From positions 1 through 27,592 of the IMG/VR virus record IMGVR_UViG_3300027763_000194: a DNA stretch of 27,592 nt; one strand, given 5' to 3'. Below, in pieces: positions 1 through 27,592 of this stretch. Below the pieces are notes generated by a model, which was not told where the DNA came from, did no database searches, and saw only the letters and a program-made list of their open reading frames with translations. Position 1 is the stretch's first letter; every line of letters starts with the position of its first letter. The translations under genes were made by a program, and so were the position numbers. The stretch comes from a virus.

Positions 1-884
1 GTAATTTGTCTTCTTGCATCATTCGCTCTACTGACACTGAAGATAGTATTGCTAATAAGATTAGGCTTGCTACAATTCTTGGAACTTTTCAAGCGTCGTT
101 AACAGACTTCCCTTACTTGCGTAAGATATGGCAAAAGAATACTGAAGAAGAAGCACTCTTAGGTGTGTCTATGACTGGTATCTGTGACAACACTTTGTTA
201 AATAATCCTGATGATGAATCATTACCTGCACGATTGGAGGCACTACGTGATATTGCTATCGCTACTAATGCTAAGTTTGCTAACGCTATCGGAATTAATC
301 AGAGTGTTGCTGTCACGGCGGTTAAACCCGAAGGTACCGTCAGTCAGCTATGCTCTACTGCCTCTGGTATTCATCCTCAGCATAGTAAATATTATATACG
401 TCGTGTCAGAGCTGACAACAAAGACCCTTTAACTCAGTTTATGATTCAAGCTGGTTTCGTTGCAGAGCCTTGTGTGATGAAACCTGAGTCAACTACAGTC
501 TTTAGTTTTCCTGTAGAAGTAGCTGAAGGTGGACTGTTGCGTGAAGACTTAACTGCTATTCAACACTTACGTTTGTGGTTAATCTTTCAGCGTCATTACT
601 GTGAGCATAAGCCGTCAGTCACTATCTCTGTCTTAGAGAACGAATGGATGGATGTAGGGGCGTGGACATTCAAACACTTTGATGAAGTTACTGGAGTGTC
701 TTTCCTACCAATGGATGGTGGCACTTACAAGCAAGCACCTTATGAAGAGTGTGACGAAGAGACCTACAACAGATTAAAGTTGTTGGTTCCTGATACCGTA
801 GACTGGGAGAACTTCAAAGAATATGACGATAATGTCGAAGGCGCTCAGATGTTGAGCTGCACTGCTGGAGGGTGTGAAATCTAA
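1..884 (+). CDS. Class II (adenosylcobalamin-dependent) ribonucleotide reductase, C-terminal part
   Basis: The reading frame is open from the left edge, so the N-terminal part lies outside the window; the TTG at position 6 is only an internal codon. The visible 292 residues resemble the C-terminal part of the monomeric B12-dependent ribonucleoside-triphosphate reductases, which make deoxynucleotides from ribonucleotides using an adenosylcobalamin-derived radical. Supporting segments are NLSSC at the start, LLGVSMTGICDN about 50 residues in, and a C-terminal SCTAGGCEI in which two cysteines are separated by four residues, as in the thioredoxin-reducible cysteine pair of this family. Such genes are common in aquatic phages and supply dNTPs for replication. 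It is convergent with the lysis genes and followed by a strong terminator. Class II assignment is good; the monomeric subtype is inferred. Confidence 0.82.
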   Translation, partial: NLSSCIIRSTDTEDSIANKIRLATILGTFQASLTDFPYLRKIWQKNTEEEALLGVSMTGICDNTLLNNPDDESLPARLEALRDIAIATNAKFANAIGINQSVAVTAVKPEGTVSQLCSTASGIHPQHSKYYIRRVRADNKDPLTQFMIQAGFVAEPCVMKPESTTVFSFPVEVAEGGLLREDLTAIQHLRLWLIFQRHYCEHKPSVTISVLENEWMDVGAWTFKHFDEVTGVSFLPMDGGTYKQAPYEECDEETYNRLKLLVPDTVDWENFKEYDDNVEGAQMLSCTAGGCEI

Positions 885-17170: not shown

Positions 17171-17199
17171 ATTTTACCACAGTTTTATTAAAAAGTCAA
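17171..17199 (-). promoter_or_regulatory. Sigma70 promoter for scaffold/coat operon
   Basis: On the minus strand TTGACT (17199-17194) is followed after exactly 17 bases by TAAAAT (17176-17171). It lies between the portal stop and the small head gene at 17118 and would drive the small head genes, scaffold and coat protein, adding to transcription from the terminase promoter. Confidence 0.82.
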
Positions 17200-21692: not shown

Positions 21693-21721
21693 ATTTTAGC
21701 ATACTTTCGTGATTCTGTCAA
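21693..21721 (-). promoter_or_regulatory. Sigma70 promoter of the terminase/virion operon
   Basis: On the minus strand a perfect TTGACA (21721-21716) is followed after 17 bases by TAAAAT (21698-21693). A/T-rich TATAAAATAATGC lies just upstream of the -35, like an UP element. The start would be near 21686, giving a 190-base leader before the small terminase gene. It is the main leftward promoter I can see. Confidence 0.88.
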
Positions 21722-21968: not shown

Positions 21969-21996
21969 AACAACACCCCCTCCCCCCTATGTTGTT
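21969..21996. other. Hairpin with a 14-base C-rich loop
   Basis: AACAACA (21969-21975) pairs perfectly with TGTTGTT (21990-21996). The loop is CCCCCTCCCCCCTA, so the minus strand shows a run of GGGGGGAGGGGG. The flanking plus strand from about 21948 to 21990 has no G at all (A/C/T only). This is the most skewed stretch of the window. Confidence 0.55.
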
Positions 21997-22016
21997 TCTA
22001 TACCACACTATAGCGA

Positions 22017-22033
22017 AGTAAGCACTTACTTAC
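22017..22033 (+). promoter_or_regulatory. Operator-like site B
   Basis: AGTAAGCACTTACTTAC; AAGTAAG-CA-CTTACTT (22016-22031) is a perfect 7-bp inverted repeat with a 2-bp spacer. Same motif as sites A (17142-17158) and C (22074-22090). Confidence 0.6.
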
Positions 22034-22049
22034 TTGCTCCTGGGTTGTC

Positions 22050-22055
22050 TATAAT
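22050..22055 (+). promoter_or_regulatory. Consensus -10 element between sites B and C
   Basis: A perfect TATAAT on the plus strand. No good -35 exists at 16-18 bases; the place of a -35 is occupied by site B, so a rightward early promoter here would need an activator or be very weak. Site C would lie at about +12 to +28 of the transcript. Confidence 0.4.
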
Positions 22056-22073
22056 AGGGACAGAGTCAACGAT

Positions 22074-22090
22074 AGTGAGTACTTACTTAC
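22074..22090 (+). promoter_or_regulatory. Operator-like site C
   Basis: AGTGAGTACTTACTTAC, identical to site A in 16 of 17 bases. It starts 57 bases after site B. Both B and C are followed by ATAATNGGGACAG (22051-22063 and 22095-22107), so the area looks like a diverged duplication. Confidence 0.62.
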
Positions 22091-22204
22091 ATCGATAATG
22101 GGGACAGTGTTGTTTCTACGTCACTGTATATCTGTACAGCACCAGGTGAGTGGGACGATGATGCACCATTACAGGGCAACATAGTTAGTGGATACTTACA
22201 CGTC

Positions 22205-23951: not shown

Positions 23952-25049
23952 ATGAAATACCTTAGTGTTTGCAGTGGAGTAGAGGCGGCAACAGTAGCGT
24001 GGCACTCGTTAGGGTGGCAACCTGTTGCATTTTCTGAAATCGAGCCATTCCCATCAGCAGTATTGGCTCATCATTATCCAAATGTCCCTAATCTTGGGGA
24101 TATGACTAAATTTAAAGATTGGAACCTAAATGAATCAATTGACATTCTTGTTGGAGGAACTCCCTGCCAATCATTCTCAGTCGCAGGACTCCGAAAAGGT
24201 CTTGAAGACCCAAGAGGAAACCTTGCCCTCACCTATGTTGGAATTCTTGACAAATTTAAGCCCAAATGGTTTATCTGGGAAAACGTTCCAGGTGTCCTCA
24301 GTTCCAATAGTGGAAGGGACTTTGGCTCCTTCCTCGGGGCGGTGGCTGAACTCGGGTATGGGTTCGCCTATCGGGTGCTTGATGCTCAAAACTTCGGAGT
24401 CCCACAAAGGCGCAGAAGAGTCTTTGTTGTCGGATGTCTTGGAGGTTGGGACTCTGCAGCAGAAGTATTATTTGAGTCAGAAAGCCTGTCAGGGGATATT
24501 AAACAGAGCAGAAAGACGAGGCAAGGTGTTGCCGGTTTTGTTGAAAGTAGCTTTGGACAATATCGTGAAGATGTCATCGCAGGAACAACCAAAGCAAGCG
24601 GAGGAGTCTTAGGAGGTGGCTCTGAAACATTCTTAACAGTCTACGAAAACCATCCATCCGATAGTAGGGTCAAAGATATGGGTGATGTGTGTCAGACTGT
24701 AACATCTACGTGGGGTAGCGGAGGCGGTAATATTCCATTTGTTCAGAATGTTGCGTTCGGTTGGCAGAATAGTTCTCATCAGGGTATGTCAATTGATACA
24801 ATTTCACCTACACTAGATAAGAGCAAAACCCCTGCAACAGTACAAAACATGAGTGTTCGAAGACTGACTCCTGTTGAGTGTGAGCGGTTGCAAGGCTTTC
24901 CAGATAACTACACACAGATTCCCTGGAACAAGAAAGTTGCTATTGGTTGTCCAGATGGATTACGCTATAAAGCAATGGGAAACTCAATGGCAGTTCCTGT
25001 AATGAATTGGATTGGAAATAGAATCCACAACTTTAATGAAGGCTTATAA
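23952..25049 (+). CDS. dcm: Cytosine-5 DNA methyltransferase
   Basis: A 365-residue methyltransferase that transfers a methyl group from S-adenosylmethionine to cytosine C5. Motif I-like SVCSGVEAATVAWHSLGW (5-22), motif IV GGTPCQSFS with catalytic Cys72, ENV at 110-112 (motif VI), QRRRRVFVVG at 152-161 (motif VIII), RRLTPVECERLQGFP near 303-317 (motif IX) and AMGNSMAVPV near 341-350 (motif X). All key motifs are present, so it should be active. The target sequence, set by about residues 165-300, cannot be read. I chose the ATG at 23952 with AAAGGAAA upstream. No cognate nuclease is adjacent, so it probably protects phage DNA. A second long frame is nested inside (24130-24612). Confidence 0.93.
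   Translation: MKYLSVCSGVEAATVAWHSLGWQPVAFSEIEPFPSAVLAHHYPNVPNLGDMTKFKDWNLNESIDILVGGTPCQSFSVAGLRKGLEDPRGNLALTYVGILDKFKPKWFIWENVPGVLSSNSGRDFGSFLGAVAELGYGFAYRVLDAQNFGVPQRRRRVFVVGCLGGWDSAAEVLFESESLSGDIKQSRKTRQGVAGFVESSFGQYREDVIAGTTKASGGVLGGGSETFLTVYENHPSDSRVKDMGDVCQTVTSTWGSGGGNIPFVQNVAFGWQNSSHQGMSIDTISPTLDKSKTPATVQNMSVRRLTPVECERLQGFPDNYTQIPWNKKVAIGCPDGLRYKAMGNSMAVPVMNWIGNRIHNFNEGL
24130..24612 (+). CDS. Nested overlapping gene inside the methyltransferase
   Basis: A 160-codon frame lies wholly within the methyltransferase gene, shifted by +1, covering its codons 60-220. It starts ATG with GGAA five bases upstream. The product looks like an ordinary protein: MNQLTFLLEELPANHSQSQD, a middle with SGRWLNSGMGSPIG, and a C-terminal QQKYYLSQKACQGILNRAER then RGKVLPVLLKVAL, a plausible basic helical domain. 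I recall phage hypothetical proteins with an EE.PA..S.SQD.E start, an NSGMGSP motif and a YYLS.KAC.GIL.RAE.RGK..P end, but could not check them. The conserved GGTPCQSFSVAGLRK of the methyltransferase and EELPANHSQSQDSEK here are read from the same DNA. Function unknown; an accessory to modification or counter-restriction is a guess. Confidence 0.62.
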   Translation: MNQLTFLLEELPANHSQSQDSEKVLKTQEETLPSPMLEFLTNLSPNGLSGKTFQVSSVPIVEGTLAPSSGRWLNSGMGSPIGCLMLKTSESHKGAEESLLSDVLEVGTLQQKYYLSQKACQGILNRAERRGKVLPVLLKVALDNIVKMSSQEQPKQAEES

Positions 25050-25203: not shown

Positions 25204-25379
25204 ATAAATATATAGAAGAGTTATTGACGGAGATGCAATTTGATTTCAATGACCTAGCTATTGGCAATACTTATACAGATATAGGCTATGACAATAAAAA
25301 AGAGTTTTTTGAAGAGATGGGCAATAAAGTAAGTGAGTTATATTTCAGATTACAAAATAAGGAAAACACTACTATATGA
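25200..25379 (+). CDS. Small acidic unknown protein
   Basis: A 59-residue protein, MNKYIEELLTEMQFDFNDLA then DNKKEFFEEMGNKVSELYFR. A perfect GGAGG ribosome site eight bases before the ATG decides the start. Acidic and helical, without membrane segment or metal-binding motif. Overlaps both neighbours by ATGA. Function unknown. Confidence 0.65.
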   Translation: MNKYIEELLTEMQFDFNDLAIGNTYTDIGYDNKKEFFEEMGNKVSELYFRLQNKENTTI

Positions 25380-25528
25380 CACTAGAAGAAGTAGCTAAAG
25401 AGCTTGGTATTAGTCACCAGGCAGTTTGGGAAATACAAAACAGGGCAATAATCAAGCTACGTATTGCCTTAAAAAAACATGACATTACTTATAAGGATTT
25501 AGAACTATGCTTAAAATTATCTGTTTAG
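25376..25528 (+). CDS. Sigma region 4-like helix-turn-helix protein, 50 residues
   Basis: MTLEEVAKELGISHQAVWEI followed by QNRAIIKLRIALKKHDITYK and a short Leu-rich tail. The TLEEVAKELGIS..AVWEIQ.RAIIKLR pattern is the helix-turn-helix of sigma70 region 4 (compare the usual TLEEIG..LGVTRERVRQIE..AL.KLR). There is no region 2, so it cannot be a full sigma factor; it may bind DNA at -35-like sites, or touch RNA polymerase, to redirect transcription. ATGA overlap with the preceding gene supports translation. A ribosome site is not obvious apart from GGAAAA upstream. Confidence 0.72.
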   Translation: MTLEEVAKELGISHQAVWEIQNRAIIKLRIALKKHDITYKDLELCLKLSV

Positions 25529-25749: not shown

Positions 25750-25995
25750 ATGAGATGTATTTGCTGCAATACAGCATTAAATGACTATGAATCGACTGTC
25801 AGGCATGGTATTACAAAACAGTTTGTTGAGATGTGTTCTATCTGTTTAAGGTCAGTAGATGCCTACATTCCGCTCCAGGTACGCAACGACTTACTAAGTG
25901 AGGGCGATACAGGTAACGGGGAATTGATAGAGGAAGATGACTACATTGAAGACTACGATGATGACGGGATTGATGACTACTGGGAGGAGCGCTGA
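25750..25995 (+). CDS. Small zinc-finger-like acidic protein
   Basis: An 81-residue protein with MRCICCNTALNDYESTVRHG and VEMCSICLRSVDAY: CxxC at 3-6 (with an extra Cys5) and CxxC at about 29-32 make a probable four-cysteine zinc finger. The C-terminal half is strongly acidic (EEDDYIEDYDDDGIDDYWEE). Similar T7-like early proteins exist with unknown roles. I chose the ATG at 25750 with AAAGG 11 bases upstream. An acidic tail of this type may mimic DNA; this is speculation. Confidence 0.7.
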   Translation: MRCICCNTALNDYESTVRHGITKQFVEMCSICLRSVDAYIPLQVRNDLLSEGDTGNGELIEEDDYIEDYDDDGIDDYWEER

Positions 25996-25998
25996 GGT

Positions 25999-26024
25999 AT
26001 CATAGGTTCTATATAGTCTATGAT
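25999..26024. repeat. 7-bp inverted repeat after the zinc-finger gene
   Basis: ATCATAG (25999-26005) and CTATGAT (26018-26024) are perfect complements around a 12-base loop, just after the stop codon at 25995. No T-run follows, so it is not a classical terminator, but it may protect the mRNA end or bind protein. Confidence 0.45.
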
Positions 26025-26092
26025 GTTAGCTATGAAGAGTAATGATTTATAACTACATCAAAAAACAATCAACGATAGTAATGTCGTAAAGC

Positions 26093-26121
26093 ATTATAGT
26101 AAAGTTTTAAAATGTTGTCAA
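26093..26121 (-). promoter_or_regulatory. Consensus sigma70 promoter directed against the early genes
   Basis: On the minus strand TTGACA (26121-26116), 17 bases, TATAAT (26098-26093): a perfect match in both boxes and spacing. It lies in the 210-base gap of the early arm and points leftward, antisense to the zinc-finger and small early genes. It shares ATAAAATAA upstream and GCTTTAC downstream with the terminase promoter at 21693-21721. No minus-strand gene follows. Confidence 0.72.
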
Positions 26122-26152
26122 GCTATTTATTTTATGGATTGTGTCTTAAAAA

Positions 26153-26168
26153 CAACAAGTTTTTGTTG
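26153..26168 (+). repeat. Inverted repeat CAACAA-gttt-TTGTTG
   Basis: A perfect 6-bp inverted repeat with a 4-base loop, directly followed by GACTTTACG. It lies 38 bases before the next gene start and may be an operator or a small RNA hairpin. Confidence 0.35.
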
Positions 26169-26205
26169 ACTTTACGATAAGATGTCTTTTTACACAGGGG
26201 GTTCT

Positions 26206-26385
26206 ATGTTGGAATTTGACGAAATGAGTGGTTTAGAGCTGCAATATGCTCAAGAAGAGATGCATAAGCATTTTGTTTTGGAAGAGATGGTCTATCTTTG
26301 TGGTCTTTATGGTTACGAGCCTATGATGGACGAGTTCCGGCAGCGCTTAAATCAAGCGATAGACCGATTAGTCCCTGTTGTATAG
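26206..26385 (+). CDS. Small unknown protein
   Basis: A 59-residue, helical, acidic protein: MLEFDEMSGLELQYAQEEMH then YGYEPMMDEFRQRLNQAIDR. I chose the ATG at 26206 because AGGGGG lies five bases upstream; an ATG at 26182 in frame has no ribosome site. No recognised family or membrane segment. Confidence 0.6.
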   Translation: MLEFDEMSGLELQYAQEEMHKHFVLEEMVYLCGLYGYEPMMDEFRQRLNQAIDRLVPVV

Positions 26386-26616: not shown

Positions 26617-26813
26617 TGCAATATAAAAGTGAACCAATTGGATTGACTGCTACATTCAAAGTAACGAAGACTTACTACGTTACTTGTTACGGCGACACCG
26701 AAGAGGATTGCTACATCATGGCGGAGAATTTATCGCCTACGGATATTAAAGAAGAAGACTTAGGCGATATGGAAGTAGAAATTGCCGGTGGGTTTGAATA
26801 TGACGGATTCTAA
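26613..26813 (+). CDS. Small acidic unknown protein before the primase
   Basis: A 66-residue protein, MMQYKSEPIGLTATFKVTKT, then an acidic second half with GDTEEDCYIMAENLSPTDIK and an end GGFEYDGF. The strand pattern of the first half (ATFKVTKTYYVTCYGDTEED) suggests a small beta domain. It overlaps the primase start by 14 bases and the previous stop by ATGA. Function unknown. Confidence 0.65.
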   Translation: MMQYKSEPIGLTATFKVTKTYYVTCYGDTEEDCYIMAENLSPTDIKEEDLGDMEVEIAGGFEYDGF

Positions 26814-27592
26814 GTATGTAAAGCACATCCCCTGCGAGAGTTGTGGCAGTAGTGATGCGAACAGTTTGTTTGACGACAATCATCAATACTGTTTTGCTTG
26901 TCAGACTTATGTTGCAGGTGATGGTACAACAACACAAACAAAGGCAGTTAAACCAATGAATAAGGATTTAAACTTTTATGACAATAGTTCTTCTCTCAGT
27001 ATCGCTAGTCGTGGTATTACTTCGGCTACTTGCATAGCTTACGGAGTTCGCCAGAACGAAGGTAAACACTTTTATCCCTACTATGATATTGATGGGGTAA
27101 TGACGGCAATCAAAACAAGGTTAGTGGAAACCAAAGATTTTAGTATTGCCGGAGACTTTAAAGAGGCTACATTGTTTGGACAGAATCTGTTCACCAAGTC
27201 AGGGCGCTATCTAACCATCTGCGAGGGTGAATTAGATGCACTAGCAAGCTACCAGATGCAAGGTAGCAAGTACCCTTGCGTTAGTGTTAGAAGTGGAGCA
27301 CAAGCAGCTCTAAAGGATTGCAAAATGCAATATGAATGGATTGATTCATTTGAGAATATTGTGATTTGTTTTGATGCTGATGAGCCGGGAATTAAAGCAT
27401 CACAAGCAGTTGCTGAGTTGTTTGGTGGCAAAGTTAAAGTAATGAAGCATAGGAAAGGATACAAAGATGCGTGTGATTATCTTGAGAATGGTGCTGGTAA
27501 AGAATTTATTGATTCTTGGTGGTCTGCTGAGTCTTATGTCCCTGATGGAATTATTCAAGGCAACACCCTCTGGGACATTGTGTCAGCGCCTA
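26800..27592 (+). CDS. DNA primase-helicase, T7 gp4-like, N-terminal part
   Basis: 264 residues are visible and the frame is open to the right edge, so the helicase part lies outside. Zinc-binding domain: Cys12, Cys15, Cys31 and Cys34 (HIPCESCGSS, QYCFACQ), which recognises the priming site in T7-type primases. Primase TOPRIM core: CEGELDALAS at 141-150 with Glu142, and CFDADEPG at 190-197 with Asp192 and Asp194, the metal-binding acids. It would make RNA primers and, with the missing C-terminal RecA-like domain, unwind DNA. It shares 14 bases with the preceding gene. An internal in-frame ATG (codon 53) with AAGG upstream could give a form without the zinc domain, as in T7. Confidence 0.92.
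   Translation, partial: MTDSKYVKHIPCESCGSSDANSLFDDNHQYCFACQTYVAGDGTTTQTKAVKPMNKDLNFYDNSSSLSIASRGITSATCIAYGVRQNEGKHFYPYYDIDGVMTAIKTRLVETKDFSIAGDFKEATLFGQNLFTKSGRYLTICEGELDALASYQMQGSKYPCVSVRSGAQAALKDCKMQYEWIDSFENIVICFDADEPGIKASQAVAELFGGKVKVMKHRKGYKDACDYLENGAGKEFIDSWWSAESYVPDGIIQGNTLWDIVSAP

Follow-up and report, generated by a model that had tools for sequence, protein, structure and literature searches.

Why should a phage carry a perfect sigma70 promoter that points back into its early genes, with no gene behind it to transcribe? The question is raised by a 27.6 kb fragment of an uncultured tailed phage, the whole of which (27,592 nucleotides) we refer to as the window; no cultured close relative of this phage was found. 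Its leftward virion genes (portal, major head protein and terminase) occupy positions 951-21494, and a divergent non-coding region of ~1 kb separates them from a rightward arm of small early genes, a cytosine methyltransferase (23952-25046) and a T7-type primase/helicase. Within this arm, in a 210-base gap with plus-strand genes on either side (25750-25995 and 26206-26385), lies the minus-strand promoter that we call P26 (TTGACAACATTTTAAAACTTTACTATAAT, 26093-26121). The initial annotation had described a perfect TTGACA-17-TATAAT on the minus strand in a gap of the plus-strand arm, and the description holds: P26 matches the consensus at 12/12 positions, without an extended -10, and is the sole exact match to TTGACA-N15..19-TATAAT within the window, against a mean of 0.05 expected by chance (5 of 100 dinucleotide shuffles of the window have one). 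It combines the elements by which a sigma70 promoter is recognized, namely TTGACA, a spacing of 16-18 nt, TATAAT and an occurrence above chance, and is very probably a real promoter and not a chance match. From the position of the -10 box, its RNA is predicted to start at about 26086. The features of the locus, with its sister promoter P21, are these:

21693-21721, minus strand: P21, the terminase promoter (TTGACA-17-TAAAAT), a sister leftward promoter, conserved in relatives
25750-25995, plus strand: left neighbour, a small protein with a CxxC..CxxC zinc-ribbon motif and a very acidic tail, of the same family in 68 of 73 genomes
25996-26047, no strand assigned: remainder of the gap, containing the CTATATAG palindrome; a rightward terminator-like hairpin and T tract in many relatives
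26048-26092, minus strand: conserved initially transcribed region (GCTTTACGACATTACTATCGTTGATTGTTT...), 74% mean pairwise identity
26093-26098, minus strand: -10 box of P26, TATAAT; TATAAT, TACAAT or TAAAAT in relatives
26116-26121, minus strand: -35 box of P26, TTGACA; exact TTGACA in 59 of 64 gap-covering relatives
26122-26140, minus strand: conserved A/T-rich upstream stretch (AAAATAAA), UP-element-like, 66% mean pairwise identity among 30 non-redundant relatives
26166-26171, plus strand: possible -35 box (TTGACT) of a divergent rightward promoter, weak here and with no good -10
26206-26385, plus strand: first gene of the right-hand (replication) block, an ORF with GGGGG before its ATG and with homologues in relatives
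26800-27592, plus strand: T7-type DNA primase/helicase, cut by the window end (phrog_239, E 2e-82), the query for relatives

We gathered 80 related contigs via the primase gene, and further ones via two more distant queries. It had been proposed to check the promoter by asking whether related phages keep its boxes in the same gap, and the outcome was strongly positive: P26 is present there in 59 of the 64 contigs expected to cover the gap, with 11 or 12 of 12 matches. In nearly all covering contigs a leftward TTGACA-16/17-TAnnnT with at least 11/12 matches stands 0.6-2.3 kb before the primase gene. P26 is kept in two sub-clades with differing flanks, and it stayed in the 5 of 73 genomes where another gene replaces the left neighbour. 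The motif TTGACA-16..18-TATAAT occurs 0 to 3 times per genome in 14 near-complete relatives, mostly as the P26 copy alone.

Conservation is concentrated at particular parts of the locus. Within the main clade (30 non-redundant members), pairwise identity averages 88% in the -10 box and 65% in the spacer, 74% in the first 45 bases past the -10 box and 55% beyond them, and 42% in the leader of the right-hand gene; the value of 100% for the -35 box carries a bias, TTGACA having been the criterion by which members were chosen. To test conservation free of this bias, we searched all viral contigs for the exact 20-base core of the transcribed region (ACATAGACTATCGTTGATTG). It was found in 33 of them, once each, and in 33/33 directly behind TTGACA-16/17-TAnnnT. 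No exact copy was found in the prokaryote genome collection, and for this reason host mimicry was dismissed.

These patterns bear on the simplest rival explanation, that P26 is a stray or relic promoter without function, kept through common descent alone. The relatives do share descent, and two of them (L014 and L017) have lost the -35 box, retaining the -10 box and the transcribed region; because of this loss, the full strength of P26 is not indispensable. Elsewhere, however, the boxes are retained while the spacer and the leader next to them drift, and P26 is kept where its neighbours differ. We therefore disfavour this explanation and consider it highly improbable.

Further from the window, the picture changes. 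Three contigs (L100, L101 and L106) are without the consensus form of P26. In a distant clade (L096, L100, L106 and L128), the same gap has a leftward promoter-like site of the extended -10 kind, consisting of TTGAAA or TTGCAA, 16-17 bases, and TGn followed by TACCAT or TACCCT. No P26-like site was found in lineages at about 50% primase identity, several of which have the homologue of the left neighbour placed after the primase gene. Directly behind the promoter-like site of the distant clade stand two to three copies of a palindrome, TGTTGT-N5..7-ACAACA, which is also repeated in the window (21990-22130) and in the divergent region of several relatives; these palindromes are likely operators of some regulator. 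The window also holds three plus-strand direct repeats around GTAAGTACTTACTTAC (22015-22034, 22072-22091 and 22181-22200), two of them followed by CTATAATAGGGACAG / CGATAATGGGGACAG, which are possible early promoters or operator sites.

The initial annotation had also remarked that no minus-strand gene follows P26, and the remark extends to the group as a whole: across 75 genomes (the window and 74 relatives), no minus-strand ORF preceded by a ribosome-binding site begins in the 300 nt downstream of P26. In the absence of a downstream minus-strand gene P26 does not class as an mRNA promoter, and a small leader peptide or missed gene was dismissed on the same ground. RNAalifold returned no consensus structure on either strand, single-sequence fold z-scores were weak (means of -0.75 for the minus and -0.95 for the plus strand), and the region of the P26 transcript had no Rfam match, so that a structured RNA was dismissed as well. 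With no ORF, no consensus fold and no Rfam match, any product of P26 would therefore be a non-coding RNA without an evident fold.

Such an RNA could in principle be a discrete small RNA with targets elsewhere in the phage or in the host, on which it acts in trans, and with its first 45 nt as the working part. The transcribed start is conserved as that of a functional RNA would be, L014 and L017 retain it although their -35 box is lost, and every one of the 33 exact copies of the core lies behind P26. The structural results just given nevertheless speak against a small RNA, and so do the leftward terminators that should bound it: leftward hairpins with T tracts occur in 31% of the gaps versus 15% of shuffles at -4 kcal/mol, weakly above the background, and none was found near P26 in a scan of the window. 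The sole complementary site in the early leader, an 11-base match (TCAACGATAGT) at 22066, was considered as a trans target and dismissed, as it is not conserved in relatives; the lack of an exact core copy in the prokaryote genome collection likewise counts against a small RNA. We regard a trans-acting small RNA as improbable.

A short sequence, TTACGACATTACTATCG, is slightly T7-promoter-like. A T7-type promoter was dismissed, since the likeness fades in the consensus and the polymerase gene was not found in relatives; the gene for a T7-type RNA polymerase (PF00940) was absent from 18 near-complete relatives, with a control phage scoring positive. From this absence, host RNA polymerase probably serves these phages.

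P26 has a close counterpart in P21, which matches the consensus at 11/12 positions and has an extended -10 (TGC TAAAAT), in contrast to the 12/12 of P26, where the extended -10 is absent. The resemblance of their flanks, pointed out earlier, was confirmed: ATAAAATAA stands upstream of both and GCTTTAC just past the -10 box, and the likeness recurs in relatives. It was also proposed, as an alternative to antisense control, that leftward transcripts from P26 reach the virion operon. P26 would then be a second promoter of that operon, its transcripts crossing the early genes in reverse and then the divergent region before they enter the terminase and virion genes. Its orientation, which is that of P21, and the shared flanks (with GC(T/C)TTAC as the downstream element) agree with such a role, as does the finding that leftward terminator-like sites are no more numerous than by chance. 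However, a conserved leftward promoter, P21, already precedes the terminase genes directly, and for this reason the alternative is less economical than an antisense function. Moreover, the leader would amount to ~4.4 kb of RNA antisense to early transcription, and the conservation of the transcribed start would be left unexplained. We judge a virion-operon role unlikely. In most relatives the CTATATAG palindrome closely follows the left gene's stop codon (within 25996-26047 in the window); in some clades it is also found directly past the -10 box of either P26 or the terminase promoter. The virion operon probably has an internal promoter as well: at 17171-17199 on the minus strand, in the gap that separates the portal gene from its leftward successor, stands TTGACT-17-TAAAAT, its -10 box preceded by TG.

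The left neighbour is the first gene that a leftward P26 RNA would overlap; its residues C3, C6, C29 and C32 are invariant, it belongs to no known family, and its predicted structure, of low confidence (pLDDT 58), was left out of the reasoning. Between this gene and P26, a rightward hairpin followed by a T tract (-4 kcal/mol or better) was found in 59% of 32 genomes versus 18% of shuffles. The best examples come from relatives such as L043 and L049 (CCTATACAGTC...GGCTGTAAGG TTTTAATA), and none was found in the window's own gap. On the other side, most relatives have TTGACA or TTGACT at 23-25 bases from the -35 box of P26, an element that is shifted and degenerate in the window. We judged this putative divergent rightward promoter from its fixed place alone, because its summed box score is not above that of shuffles. 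Further to the left, at 25376-25528 on the plus strand, a protein of 50 residues is made up solely of a helix-turn-helix resembling sigma70 region 4 (Pfam Sigma70_r4, 25.9 bits, above the threshold); similar proteins occur in 3 of 15 relatives, and it could act on -35 boxes.

This arrangement also invites the view that the gap is a replication element, in which transcription from P26 primes or opens an origin beside the primase gene. The gap is A/T-rich, contains palindromes and divergent promoter-like sites and adjoins replication genes, and in lambda the promoter pO affects replication (PMC3985674). In the genomes examined, however, GC skew changes sign near the terminase, at the divergent region and not at P26, and an origin at the gap was dismissed by this measure; the repeat arrays, too, lie in the divergent region and not in the gap of P26. 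An origin at P26 thus seems to us unlikely.

We suggest instead that P26 is an antisense promoter that faces the early promoters and damps early-gene transcription by convergent transcription, and we put the probability of this reading at about 0.5. P26 would use host sigma70 to drive a leftward non-coding transcript from the point where the early (host-takeover) genes give way to the replication genes, firing against the early promoters. RNA polymerases starting from P26 would collide with those coming from the early promoters, and the P26 RNA would be antisense to the 3' part of the early operon, with the zinc-ribbon/acidic gene first. The outcome would be that early-gene expression goes down and the right-hand replication genes remain on. 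The initial annotation had envisaged an antisense RNA that shuts down early genes: the conserved boxes stand in its favour and the anatomy of the locus fits it best. The sequences establish the site, where it lies, that it is conserved and that no coding product follows it, neither its orientation nor the missing gene being an artefact; the repression itself, the firing of P26 in infection and the extent of its RNA we infer.

Several points count against damping. A promoter with consensus boxes would be expected to be active as soon as infection begins, depressing the early genes just when they are required, unless it is held back. In addition, no leftward terminator was found, the window is without the rightward hairpin, L014 and L017 have lost the -35 box, and 5 of 73 genomes have a different gene on the left. 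The conserved region past the start of P26 may serve as an operator, as a leader element or for processing, and as a control site it could explain why P26 would not fire at once. More speculatively, the fixed module of rightward terminator, regulated antisense promoter and divergent replication promoter might form a timing switch, turning early genes down and replication on in a lineage without an RNA polymerase of its own. The transcribed start would then be the timing site for a phage factor, for instance the sigma-region-4-like protein where present. This extended proposal is tentative, and we think it rather doubtful. Antisense promoters are often dismissed as noise, or are known from single phages. 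P26 keeps a constant position in dozens of contigs from a group of uncultured phages, with the surrounding sequence drifting, and therefore offers a natural system in which to test convergent transcription as an off-switch of early genes in phages that apparently depend on host RNA polymerase.

Antisense RNAs have been reported in Pseudomonas phages, in LUZ100 and also in LIT1 and LUZ7 (PMC10134795). P26 resembles LUZ100 in its (predicted) non-coding antisense transcription within a phage operon. In LUZ100 the antisense RNAs concern structural genes and were detected by RNA sequencing, whereas P26 lies at the border of early and replication genes, is known from sequence alone and is widely conserved. 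The effect we propose has a designed equivalent in E. coli, where a gene with a strong promoter at its end, directed back into it, is repressed increasingly with promoter strength, polymerase collisions and antisense RNA contributing about equal parts (PMC4731013). Brophy and Voigt (2016) built the part as a one-way terminator followed by an antisense promoter (PMC4731013). With hairpins enriched to the left of P26, many of its relatives show a like order of gene, putative rightward terminator and strong back-pointing promoter; P26 differs in being natural and read from genome sequences only, and the window itself lacks the hairpin.

The closest natural parallel is lambda pO, which is directed back into the early operon from a position immediately ahead of the replication genes, reduces transcription from pR and aids replication control (PMC3985674); the lambda OOP RNA suppresses CII activity (PMC5869508). 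Like pO, P26 is a leftward host-sigma70 promoter that opposes a rightward early transcript and has a small early gene on one side and replication genes on the other; in both cases the RNA, predicted for P26, comes close to or extends over the 3' end of the upstream gene. Unlike for OOP, a leftward terminator similar to tO was not found, and in place of cII and O the neighbours of P26 are the zinc-ribbon/acidic gene and a T7-type primase, with no PHROG or Pfam matches to cII or O. OOP is defined by its terminator and its neighbours; both were looked for at P26 and not found, and for this reason we do not place it in the OOP family. A role in lysogeny is also unlikely, since no integrase was found in 16 near-complete relatives from the P26-bearing and nearest clades. 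In an outgroup at ~51% primase identity (L132 and L138, records G018 and G017), an integrase is present and P26 is absent. Compared with pO, P26 has in addition a conserved transcribed start, and it is a new form of the convergent antisense promoters of which lambda pO is an example.
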